Assembly (NCBI GenBank): GCA_944391625.1
Contig: CALXUG010000024.1
Location: 1 to 42,584 of the forward strand
From: an uncultured Clostridia bacterium
Lineage (GTDB): Bacteria > Bacillota > Peptococcia > Peptococcales > Peptococcaceae
Reading direction: 5' to 3'
Length of the DNA: 42,584 nucleotides
The translations under genes were made by a program, and so were the position numbers. The notes under the pieces were generated by a model. It did no database searches, was not told the DNA's origin, and was given only the letters and a program-made list of their open reading frames with translations. Below, one piece after another: positions 5,411-13,579 of this stretch (the stretch's first letter is position 1; the number at the start of each line of letters is the position of its first letter).

Positions 5411-6433
5411 TTAAAATTGACGCAGAAAACGCAAATCATTTTCATACATCAGACGCAAATCGTTGATTCCGTATTTGAGCATAGCGATACGTTCTACCCC
5501 TAAACCAAAGGCAAAACCGCTGACCTGTTCCGGATCATAGCCGCCGGCCCGCAGCACATTTGGATGCACCATACCGGCGCCCAGAATTTCCAGCCAACCG
5601 GTGTTGGAGCACATCCGACAGCCTTCTCCATGACACATACAGCAGGAGATATCCACTTCTACACTTGGCTCAGTGAACGGGAAATAGCTTGGACGCAGAC
5701 GAATCCGTGTATCCTTGCCGAACATCTCCTGACAGAAGGACAACAGCAAACCGTTCAAATCGCTCATGCGGATATTTTTATCTACCAGCAGACCTTCAAT
5801 CTGATGAAACATCGGAGAATGGGTAGCATCATCATCTTTCCGGTATACTTTACCCGGGCAGATAACTTTGATCGGCAGCGCACCTTCTTTGGCTTCCATG
5901 GTGTGTACCTGTACACCGGATGTCTGCGTACGCAGCACAATTTCCGGATTGATGTAGAAAGTATCCTGCATATCCCGCGCCGGATGATCCTTTGGCAGGT
6001 TCAATGCTTCAAAGTTATAGTAATCGCTCTCAATTTCAGGCCCTTCCGCTACTTCAAAGCCCAACCCCATAAAAATCTGTTTGGCTTCTTCAATGACCAT
6101 GGTAATCGGATGCTTGGTGCCATGATTTAAAGCACGGCCCGGCAGTGTAACATCCAGTGTTTCAGAAGCCAGTTTGGCTTCCTGCACAGCCGCTTTCATT
6201 TCGGCCAGCTTGCGGTCCAGCACCTGATTAATTTCATCCCGCACTTCATTGGCCAACTGGCCGATAACAGGACGTTCTTCGGCACTCAATTTGCCCATCC
6301 CTTTTAAGATGGTGGTCAATTCCCCTTTTTTCCCTAAAAACCGTACTTTCTGCTCGTTGAGGTAATCTATACTCTTGGCTTCTTCCAATGCCTGTATAGC
6401 CGCCTCTTTAATTTTCTTTAATTCATCACGCAC
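5411..6433 (-). CDS. pheS: Phenylalanine-tRNA ligase alpha subunit
   Basis: Catalytic alpha subunit of PheRS. The N-terminal coiled coil (about 1-85, with [12 protein letters not shown]) is followed by the class II catalytic core. Motif 2 ([20 protein letters not shown]) and motif 3 ([17 protein letters not shown]) are clear. I start it at GTG 6433 (340 aa, the usual length) because AAGGAGG lies 8 bp upstream. The longer frame opening at 6493 would begin inside the leader and translate the Shine-Dalgarno itself. pheT follows after 15 bp. Expression should rise when uncharged tRNA-Phe binds the upstream T-box. Confidence 0.97.
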
Positions 6434-6499
6434 AATGACAACCTCCTTCAAAATAATTCCCGCTTCGGCGGCATTTGTGCCTGCCGTCCACATGCGGAC

Positions 6500-6534
6500 A
6501 AAAAGAAAAAACCCTCGTCACAAAGGGACGAAGG
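6500..6534 (-). terminator. Regulated terminator of the pheST T-box
   Basis: CCTTCGTCCC pairs with GACGAGGG on the minus strand, followed by TTTTTTCTTTTT. It is the terminator that competes with the T-box antiterminator. Confidence 0.88.
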
Positions 6535-6765
6535 TCTGATTTCGCGGTACCACCCTAATTACTGTTTTAAAAACAGTCTGCTCAAACCGTTAACGCCGGT
6601 GCTACGTTTTACCTACTTGACATTCTGCTGTGCAGAATGGTTCAATAAAAATGCTCCAAGGCGAACCCGTTTATCTTTTCCGGTTTGAAGCTTTCAGCCA
6701 AGGCTCCAATCTCTGCATCCGATTATCAATAACGGCTCCTCTTCCACGCATATCATATTTCATTG
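6500..6765 (-). promoter_or_regulatory. T-box leader of pheST
   Basis: The minus strand carries the conserved T-box sequence GGGTGGTACCGCG (6555-6543), whose TGGT can pair with the tRNA 3' end. It is followed by a terminator helix and a long upstream stem I region. A candidate Phe specifier TTC lies in AAAGCTTCAAACC within stem I. T-box leaders sense the ratio of charged to uncharged tRNA and permit read-through when charging is low. The identity as a Phe leader follows from the downstream genes; the specifier assignment is tentative. Confidence 0.93.
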
Positions 6766-6771
6766 CCAACA

Positions 6772-6800
6772 ATTATAACAAAGGAACTACAAAAGAGCAA
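6772..6800 (-). promoter_or_regulatory. Promoter of pheST
   Basis: On the minus strand TTGCTC (6800-6795) and TATAAT (6777-6772) are 17 bp apart. The -35 box ends only 7 bp from the duplicated target site of the neighbouring foldback element. Confidence 0.8.
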
Positions 6801-6817
6801 GTAAAATATTCATTTCA

Positions 6818-7081
6818 GATCGTGTAAATTTCCTGCAGGAAAAAGATAGCACTATCCAAAATACAACATGTTTACCCCATTTATCACAACATTTCTCCAA
6901 AATCACCAAGAGGGCAATATCTTTGCAGAAAGTCCACCTCTGGATGGAGATTTCTGCAGGCTGTCCCAATCGTGGCAGACGCAGTCTGACTAAGATGGAC
7001 AGGCTAAGAAATGTCCAGAGCAGCGTGTGGACGCTGCAACAGATATTGCCCGATATAGAGTGCTGTTTTCTTTACACGATC
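6818..7081. mobile_element. 264-bp MITE-like foldback element with 10-bp target duplication
   Basis: The ends are perfect 11-bp inverted repeats, GATCGTGTAAA at 6818-6828 and TTTACACGATC at 7071-7081. The 10-bp sequence ATTCATTTCA flanks both sides exactly (6808-6817 and 7082-7091), the signature of transposition. Internally AGCACT/AGTGCT and GGGCAATATCT/AGATATTGCCC also pair, so the whole element can fold into one long hairpin. There is no transposase frame, so it is non-autonomous. A 10-bp duplication is compatible with IS4-group transposases among others; the mobilising family is not identified. It sits immediately upstream of the pheST promoter. Confidence 0.88.
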
Positions 7082-7114
7082 ATTCATTTCACTGCGTAAA
7101 CTGACCCTATTTTA

Positions 7115-7501
7115 TCATATATGCACAAATATGGTGTGCAGTACAGCCAAAACCAAACAAACGACAGCCAGCCGTTTATGGCAAAACAGCCAGCGGGAAA
7201 TTTTTCTGCGCATCAGACAAGTACCTGTCAAAAGCAAGATGCACACAAACAACACCCAGCCACTGCCAAGCATCAAAATTGTTGCCTCTGTGGTTTCAAC
7301 CAAGGCCAGCACACCATGCAGCAACCCGATCACCAGCAGCAAACCACCCCACACACCATGTTGTTTTCCCGTAACCAAGCTTAACACGGTTGAACGCTTT
7401 CTTCTTTTTTTCATAATCTGCTTTGCTGCATGGTTCAATTCTGCCAATACCAAAATAATCAATGCCACCCAGCCCAAAACACTGCCTATCATCCCAATCA
7501 C
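7115..7501 (-). CDS. Small four-helix membrane protein with paired histidines
   Basis: A 128-residue hydrophobic protein with four predicted membrane helices (about 2-22, 48-66, 73-93 and 108-126). Helix 2 and helix 4 each hold two histidines 14 residues apart (HGVWGGLLLVIGLLH and HKRLAVVCLVLAVLH). That spacing places them on one helix face, as in b-haem proteins such as ferric-reductase-like and cytochrome b561-like domains. I infer a possible two-haem membrane electron carrier; the family is not recognised with certainty. The start is GTG 7501 or ATG 7492, neither with a strong Shine-Dalgarno. It is divergent from a marR gene that may control it. Confidence 0.6.
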   Translation of the reverse strand: MIGMIGSVLGWVALIILVLAELNHAAKQIMKKRRKRSTVLSLVTGKQHGVWGGLLLVIGLLHGVLALVETTEATILMLGSGWVLFVCILLLTGTCLMRRKISRWLFCHKRLAVVCLVLAVLHTIFVHI

Positions 7502-7542: not shown

Positions 7543-7621
7543 ATTATAGTTATTTTTGTTTCCATGTCAACATATTTATTTACAGCAGACGATAACTATA
7601 GTACAATACGATTACTATAAT
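7543..7621. promoter_or_regulatory. Candidate MarR operator sites in the divergent intergenic region
   Basis: Three related 11-mers lie between the divergent genes: ATTATAGTTAT (7543-7553), ATAACTATAGT (7592-7602, inverse of the first with one mismatch) and ATTACTATAAT (7611-7621). The last two overlap likely marR promoter elements. This is consistent with autoregulation and control of the membrane protein gene, but not proven. Confidence 0.45.
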
Positions 7622-8234: not shown

Positions 8235-8384
8235 GATACACCTGTTGCATTTTACCGATTCCTCAGTGGCTCTGGACAATTGTTTAACAGTCTGTCTCAG
8301 TTTGGACTACGTCCACTTCGACTAGACCGTTTACACAATTGTCCATCCCAATTCGGAATATATGGCAAAAGCAACAGGTGTATC
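8235..8384. repeat. Foldback repeat element between marR and the carbonic anhydrase gene
   Basis: The ends GATACACCTGTTGC (8235-8248) and GCAACAGGTGTATC (8371-8384) are perfect 14-bp inverted repeats. An inner pair, TGGACAATTGT (8273-8283) and ACAATTGTCCA (8335-8345), also matches. The centre holds TTTGGACTACGTCCA, which recurs in the repeat region near 13.18 kb. No target duplication is evident. No coding capacity is seen, and the rest of the gene-free stretch 8159-8398 shows nothing else. Confidence 0.6.
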
Positions 8385-8398
8385 AATTTCCCAAATGT

Positions 8399-8965
8399 TT
8401 ATTTCTCCAATACAACTTCATCTACCGGCTTGATTTCTCCGGTGGTCGGGTCCATTAAAAATCCTTCTACCTTAATATCCTTCGGCATCAGCGGATGTTT
8501 ACGCACTTCATCCACACTCTTTTGCACTGCTTCCTGCACACAGGAAAAGCCGGTCAACCATTTCTTTACACTGAAACCGCAGTAATCCAAAAAGTCAATA
8601 TCTTTTTGTTCAATGCCGCGCTGCCGCATGTGTTCCAGCATCAAATCCCCGTCCATATGCTGCACACCGCAGTCATAATGTCCGATAATCATAATTTCGG
8701 TAACACCCAGCTCATACACCGCAATCAGCAAACTGCGCATGACACTGCCAAAAGGCGCTGTGACAACACCGCCGGCATTTTTAATCAATTTTACATCACC
8801 ATTTTTAATGCCCAATGCTGCCGGCAGCAGCTCGGTCAATCGGGTATCCATGCAAGCCACAACAGCCACATTACGATCGGGATATTTACTGGTTTGATAT
8901 TTTTCATACTGTTTTTCTGCCACAAATGTCTTATTATACTCTAAAAACTGATTCATCATACCCAT
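8399..8965 (-). CDS. Beta-class carbonic anhydrase
   Basis: Interconverts CO2 and bicarbonate in the cytoplasm. The beta-class zinc ligands are visible as Cys38, His96 and Cys99 (CMDTR and HYDC motifs), with the catalytic Asp40-Arg42 dyad in CMDTR. Hydrophobic and substrate positions appear in KNAGGVVTAPFGSVMRSLL. I start it at ATG 8965 (188 aa) because GAGGAGGG lies 9 bp upstream; the upstream TTG would overlap the Shine-Dalgarno. It is monocistronic. Length and motifs match the small beta-CA group of Bacillota rather than the longer plant type. Confidence 0.92.
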   Translation of the reverse strand: MGMMNQFLEYNKTFVAEKQYEKYQTSKYPDRNVAVVACMDTRLTELLPAALGIKNGDVKLIKNAGGVVTAPFGSVMRSLLIAVYELGVTEIMIIGHYDCGVQHMDGDLMLEHMRQRGIEQKDIDFLDYCGFSVKKWLTGFSCVQEAVQKSVDEVRKHPLMPKDIKVEGFLMDPTTGEIKPVDEVVLEK

Positions 8966-9150
8966 GGGCGGCGCCCTCCTCAAATGATTGAAATTACCAG
9001 CTGCCGTTCCATTTTACTATATTAAAACATAGGATTGATTCATAGAACCGGACAGCTGTTAAACGGACAACATAAGACTAAAAGCCAACAAACTACTAAA
9101 AAATAATACCTGCAAACGCCTTCTAACTTCTAAACAAAGAAACACCTGTT

Positions 9151-13058: not shown

Positions 13059-13074
13059 TGTTTCACGTGAAACA
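13059..13074. promoter_or_regulatory. parS centromere site (ParB/Spo0J binding)
   Basis: The perfect 16-bp palindrome TGTTTCACGTGAAACA is identical to the bacterial parS consensus TGTTNCACGTGAAACA. ParB spreads from such sites to organise and segregate the origin region. It lies in a non-coding stretch. No other copy was noticed in the window. A chance perfect match is very unlikely. Confidence 0.9.
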
Positions 13075-13128
13075 TTTTTGTTTTGCGATGCTCCGTCGTC
13101 GGGAGACTGTTTGTTGCCTGCCCTCGTA

Positions 13129-13210
13129 CCCGACCAGAAAAGCGTCGGGCACCGGACATCTGCTTGTATGTCTGCCTCACTTTGGACTACGTCCAGTTCG
13201 GCTAGACAGA
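13129..13210 (+). repeat. Hairpin repeat, plus-strand copy
   Basis: It contains two stem-loops: CCCGAC/GTCGGG with loop CAGAAAAGC, and GGAC-TAC-GTCC followed by AGTTCGGCTAGAC. An inverted relative lies at 13346-13414 and a partial relative of the second hairpin at about 8296-8327. Rough identity to the inverted copy is about 70-75% over 70 bp. No protein is supported. Confidence 0.65.
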
Positions 13211-13281
13211 CTGCGCATCTGTCCGTTTCAAGCTCGACAACGGCAACAAAACATCTCCCTGATTTGCGCGCATAAGGCTGG

Positions 13282-13436
13282 CCTATCCTTTGCCAAAATT
13301 CTGAATTGCGGCGGTCAGCAACGCAGTTTGTTTTCATTGAGCTGGACGCAGTCCATAGCGAAAGAAACAAACAAGTTGGTGTCCTCTGCCCCACGCCTTT
13401 CTGGTGGGGTAAACTGAAGGATAGGCAAAGATAGGC
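13282..13436 (-). repeat. Hairpin repeat, minus-strand copy, within an inverted-repeat frame
   Basis: The minus strand at 13414-13346 matches the plus-strand copy. Its first stem is CCCCAC/GTGGGG instead of CCCGAC/GTCGGG, a compensatory change. The unit is framed by GCCTATCCTTTGCC (13282-13295) and its near complement GGCAAAGATAGGC (13424-13436). The reading frames here mirror one another on both strands and look like by-products. Nothing else is recognisable between 13075 and 13580. Confidence 0.6.
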
Positions 13437-13579
13437 AGCCGACCGCTCAATTTTTCATAAGACGGCGGATTCTGAAAGGGATTTTCACGCAAAAGATCTA
13501 TCAGCCTCTTCGCCCTACTATCCAATTTTGCTGCTTTCAATAAAGGAATCTGTTTGACTGCTGTCTTCGTATAAACAAT

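Follow-up and report, generated by a model that had tools for sequence, protein, structure and literature searches.

The segment at positions 6818-7081 of the window, by which we mean the whole 42,584-nt stretch of DNA analysed (contig CALXUG010000024.1, assembly GCA_944391625.1) from an uncultured Clostridia bacterium of the Peptococcaceae, is a copy of a gene-less transposon, bounded by terminal inverted repeats (TIRs) of 11 bp and flanked by an exact target site duplication (TSD) of 10 bp. The reading that accounts for the whole, and that we consider very probable, is a promoter-targeted miniature transposon with the ends of an ISLre2-family insertion sequence (IS), carrying a hairpin cargo that is likely kept as a DNA structure. 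A known mechanism explains the transposon part; the novelty lies in the hairpin family and in its being joined to parS. Below, C13, C27, C39, C44 and C46 denote contigs of the source genome (G000) and L-numbers individual fetched loci or copies; positions of parS sites and hairpins come from sequence searches and from fetched stretches of the genome.

A gene-less transposon copy beside pheST

The element and its surroundings comprise the following features of the window:

5411-6493, minus strand: pheS, phenylalanyl-tRNA synthetase alpha chain
6521-6755, minus strand: T-box leader of pheST (RF00230), untouched by the insertion
6772-6800, minus strand: pheST promoter, TTGCTC (-35, 6795-6800), 17 nt, TATAAT (-10, 6772-6777)
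6808-6817: target site duplication, left copy, ATTCATTTCA
6818-6842, plus strand: left, promoter-facing end; 25 bp share 88% identity with the C39 IS end on the downstream side of the transposase gene
6912-7051, plus strand: hairpin core, the cargo; match to covariance model R1 at 6924-7037, 104.5 bits
7071-7081, minus strand: right TIR, TTTACACGATC
7082-7091: target site duplication, right copy, ATTCATTTCA
7115-7501, minus strand: small membrane-type open reading frame (ORF), on the far side of the element from pheST

The inverted repeats are perfect over 11 bp (GATCGTGTAAA at 6818-6828, TTTACACGATC at 7071-7081), no ORF of at least 100 aa overlaps 6818-7081, and the interior has a much stronger fold than its shuffled versions (z of -9.0 on the plus strand and -4.6 on the minus strand). 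A first-pass annotation had described perfect TIRs, a foldback interior and an exact 10-bp duplication, all of which are borne out by the sequence and by the fold test against shuffles. Its view of a complete, non-autonomous insertion likewise stands, with no gene inside and with TIRs and TSD perfect. The further claim that the insertion is recent holds in a relative sense: this copy has a perfect TSD and perfect TIRs, whereas the single transposase found is broken. On its right side the window copy lacks part of the shell; copies with longer right ends measure 275-330 bp.

A search for other genomic copies, as the first-pass annotation had advised, found ~44 further related stretches, bringing the total to ~45. 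Recognisable 10-bp target duplications are present in five or six copies overall; among the further copies they match at 10/10 positions in L003, 9/10 in L034 and L002, and 8/10 in L055, and in L036 the boundary is shifted by one. The number of related stretches, together with the TSDs in several of them, argues that the element is not a chance pattern. When the copies are aligned with their flanks, the core (window 6912-7051) is well conserved and the shells are less so. One stretch, C13:20494-20672, is an internal-deletion derivative. At C46:629-1180, the inner module of the element occurs three times head-to-tail, the last two with ~194 bp spacing.

The left TSD lies close to the pheST promoter, and the distance of 17 bp between the element and the -35 box, proposed earlier, is confirmed. 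The -35/-10 pair scores 9/12, and the same promoter form (TTGCnn-17-TATAAT) is found in four relatives, indicating that the insertion left the promoter whole. All four relatives have pheST and lack the element there, and, with the other copies in the source genome, they speak against a sequence fixed at this locus in all lineages and found nowhere else. As a comparison of empty sites this succeeds in part: the element is missing at pheST in these four, but their upstream genes differ, so that the loci are not strict empty sites. In one of them (L127), a carbonic anhydrase gene like that at window 8399-8983 adjoins pheS. On the other side of the element, the small ORF is preceded by a perfect sigma-A promoter (7543-7570). 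The element may influence pheST or read-through; any change in pheST expression is probably small.

ISLre2-family ends and the choice of target

An IS with the same ends as the element, the full-length partner for which the first-pass annotation had suggested searching, exists at C39:9388-10853 (1466 bp, flanked by a 9-bp TSD, GTTGCCTTT) and belongs to the ISLre2 family. At the left end it shares 91% identity with copy L018 (~76 bp), 85% with L055 (80 bp) and 88% with the window copy (25 bp); at the right end, 25 bp share 96% identity with L002 and L003. Two fragments of its transposase match PF06782 and NF033529, 'ISLre2 family transposase', each scoring below the NCBIfam cut-off; the gene is split by a frameshift and an internal part is missing. 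This IS is the only copy found, and the draft assembly contains no intact ISLre2 transposase. IS256 was rejected as a partner, its sole trace being a truncated PF00872 fragment at a terminus of contig C44, with no matching ends.

ISLre2-family and TnGBS elements generate TSDs of 8-9 bp and transpose through a circular intermediate (PMC3942029, PMC8024623). ISLre2 and TnGBS transposases insert in a fixed orientation upstream of sigma-A promoters, at 16 bp from IR-right (PMC3942029). The end of the C39 IS that faces the promoter lies on the downstream side of the transposase gene, and the promoter at the expected distance scores 12/12. Counting the C39 IS, 12 left ends face a -35/-10 pair of at least 10/12 at 16-18 bp, a score reached by 0.075% of random positions, and 14 or 15 do so at a threshold of at least 9/12, reached by 0.7%. 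No right end has a promoter scoring at least 9/12 at 16-18 bp, and a good promoter at the expected distance is lacking at L002, L032 and L033. Since left ends at most sites sit 16-18 bp from a -35 box, as published for the family, the 17-bp gap to pheST is best read as a signature of transposase targeting and not as incidental.

The element is built from both ends of an ISLre2-family IS and lacks a gene of its own; on the mechanism we propose, an ISLre2 transposase acting in trans would have moved it. The transposase would fix the orientation, placing one particular end ~16-17 bp upstream of a sigma-A -35 box and duplicating 9-10 bp of target; the pheST promoter would have been chosen as such a target and left intact. 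The cargo between the ends is one hairpin of a genus-wide family that also occurs outside the transposon; compensatory changes maintain its long pairing, in all likelihood as folded DNA (a cruciform or a single-strand foldback) and not as an RNA.

The element thus resembles ISLre2 and TnGBS, with their p-MULT 3 Mutator-like transposases, in its IS ends, its short TSD and its oriented insertion ~16 bp upstream of sigma-A promoters, but differs in having no transposase gene, in a TSD of 10 bp instead of 8-9 (the miniature copies duplicate 10 bp, the C39 IS 9 bp) and in its hairpin cargo. In being non-coding, multi-copy and intergenic, with TIRs, a TSD and a foldback, it also resembles bacterial MITEs and small repeats such as Correia, ERIC/RU and MITEAba12; what sets it apart is the interior, a distinct covarying hairpin of genus-wide occurrence that is found outside the transposon as well. 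No ISLre2-derived MITE is described in the passages covered from a full-text search of the literature. The rule of insertion upstream of sigma-A promoters is here extended to a gene-less element and accounts for the position beside pheST. The larger value of the element lies in the hairpin family that it exposed, which is abundant, genus-specific, covarying and outside Rfam, and is joined to parS in this genome.

The hairpin family and what maintains it

Covariance model R1 spans 114 positions with long outer stems, and the hairpins measure ~115-190 nt. It finds at least 119 copies in the source genome, while seven other members of the genus have 7-52 each; the same search of five other genera of the Peptococcaceae returned no member of the family. 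A search with the conserved 3' motif led to three Peptococcaceae MAGs, UBA7185, RGIG8713 and RGIG7294, and the exact 33-base core pattern had no match in named genomes. Neither the window element nor its relatives match Rfam at the gathering score, and nothing credible appears at relaxed E-values (≤5 for the window element, ≤1 for the relatives). Phage, plasmid and viral collections likewise gave no match.

Divergent relatives of the core in other genus members share its fold: an initial alignment of eight sequences gives one common structure with compensatory change in 16 of 28 pairs, and 58 distinct sequences show changes on both sides in 22 of 28. Double-changed cells number 342 in this larger set against 111 in shuffles, and 89.9% of cells are paired, compared with ~33% when the pairing is slid. 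The hairpin family, which has no Rfam match, is undescribed, genus-wide and strongly covarying. In L062, L064 and L067, the apex of the hairpin is swapped as a block for another pairing sequence, like the apex of the parS-bearing class. The window contains a second member:

8253-8366, minus strand: divergent hairpin of the same family, 75.7 bits, 3' of the carbonic anhydrase gene

This hairpin lies ~30 bp past the carbonic anhydrase stop codon and has a perfect 14-bp outer stem.

By type, the cells at paired positions comprise 1403 Watson-Crick, 42 G-U and 29 A-C. Structured RNAs are normally richer in G-U pairs. The almost purely Watson-Crick pairing, with rare wobbles and no clear strand bias, favours a structure that matters in DNA over one that matters in RNA, and on an even balance of belief we place the action of the hairpin at the DNA level. 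For the same reason, the first-pass suggestion that the internal hairpins act as an RNA is the less likely of the two.

On a rival reading, the hairpin could itself be mobile DNA whose folded single strand is recognised by an enzyme, as in REP or attC, with the ISLre2 ends as one of its vehicles. Such mobility, which we regard as unlikely but well worth weighing, fits the more than 100 dispersed copies in the genome and the genus-wide presence of the family. It also fits the two architectures within one genome, the inversion of the core relative to the left end and shell in two copies (L062 and L065) and the exchange of apex modules between classes. CGNAG triloops dominate, and loops of this type are extra stable in DNA. 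Against it, the Y1 (REP-type) transposase domain PF01797 is missing here and from six of seven further genus members that were searched, hairpins without an ISLre2 shell gave neither target duplications nor empty sites, and the copies are dispersed and form no integron-like array. Like REP and BIME sequences with their RAYT transposases, the hairpins are dispersed palindromes occurring as opposite-orientation pairs and mosaic composites, but they are ~115-190 nt long compared with 20-40 bp. Membership of the REP/RAYT class was rejected on the lack of a Y1 (HUH) transposase in the source genome and on the excessive length of the palindrome, and an integron attC identity was dropped since copies are dispersed rather than arrayed.

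The pairing might instead be kept by neutral DNA processes, such as template switching or gene conversion in long palindromes, leaving the hairpins without function. We doubt this, although the restriction to Watson-Crick pairs without strand bias, the swapping of apex modules as blocks and the finding that conservation of unpaired columns does not, on average, exceed that of paired columns all agree with it. It sits poorly with unpaired columns 52, 54, 64 and 111, whose pairwise identity is at least 0.83 across species against 58% overall.

Less plausible still is that the core is a structured RNA (a 3'-end stabiliser, a terminator-like element or a small RNA) that was captured by the transposon and is kept as a transcript. 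Strong covariation is what such an RNA would display, and the genomic setting points the same way: among 26 hairpins outside the source genome, 11 lie between convergent genes, which make up ~19% of intergenic length, and none between divergent genes (~26% of that length), counts that rest on crude gene calls. This preference for convergent gaps and avoidance of divergent ones places hairpins at gene ends. The few wobbles (G-U hardly exceeding A-C) without clear strand bias, the lack of an Rfam match, the orientation of the modelled strand in the window hairpin, opposite to both neighbouring genes, and the absence of a T-run after the hairpin at pheST all weigh against a transcript.

That the element is nothing but an ordinary old palindromic intergenic repeat with coincidental TIR, TSD and promoter distance, as the better conservation of core than ends in many copies might hint, can be dismissed as extremely improbable given TSDs in several independent copies, a matching IS and a promoter distance recurring at many sites.

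parS-bearing composite repeats

Many copies of the hairpin form a composite, in the order parS, hairpin, linker, inverted hairpin and degenerate parS. The window holds one such repeat:

13059-13450, plus strand: parS-bearing composite repeat, right end near 13450
13059-13074: exact parS of the composite
13133-13246, minus strand: first hairpin, followed by the linker
13291-13404, plus strand: second hairpin

The parS of the composites is the same 16-bp palindrome as at the genome's own parAB locus on C27, which has confirmed parA and parB genes; a protein encoded there carries ParB_N, HTH_ParB and ParB_C domains, as in a ParB of the chromosomal type. Exact copies of this site (TGTTTCACGTGAAACA) number 69 in the genome, with only three more at one mismatch. 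Context was inspected for 50 of the 69, of which 41 lie in or at hairpin repeats; eight of the other nine belong to the C27 parAB cluster. In the 15 bp that flank repeat-borne parS on the left, a mean of 1.9 positions depart from the consensus of these flanks. Moreover, the listed sites are spread over more than 20 contigs, making it unlikely that all lie near the origin. Counts in other genus members range from 3 to 34 parS sites, the inspected ones outside such repeats, and in other genera of the family from 0 to 2.

Chromosomal parS sites normally number from one to ~23 and cluster near the origin (PMC7333895). In insertion experiments with Pseudomonas and Caulobacter, extra parS was tolerated only if placed within ~600 kb of the native site or of the origin (PMC7333895). 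The composites resemble chromosomal parS in carrying the exact 16-bp site of their own parAB locus and differ from the usual arrangement in comprising 69 sites, mostly inside dispersed repeats. ParB may bind repeat-borne parS. We tentatively suggest, as a possibility short of our favoured expectation, that the genus-wide hairpin is a mobile structural module, one arrangement of which dispersed functional, ParB-loading parS across much of the chromosome, and that another arrangement was captured by the ISLre2 miniature transposon, which places this hairpin upstream of sigma-A promoters. Were this so, a compact centromere would have been turned into a dispersed one in the source species. If ParB does load at the dispersed sites, the ~600-kb tolerance rule would be violated, offering a natural system for the limits of bacterial centromeres.

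Hairpins of the family also occur at parAB loci. The parAB locus of the source genome (C27:26241-34026, L165) has 11 exact parS in 8 kb, with two hairpin composites among the sites and exact parS at the composite ends. Two other species (G003:C138:2950-3620, L167, and G004:C31:62850-63600, L166) also have a hairpin of the family immediately upstream of parA, with parS sites on either side of it, and its position appears to be the same in both.
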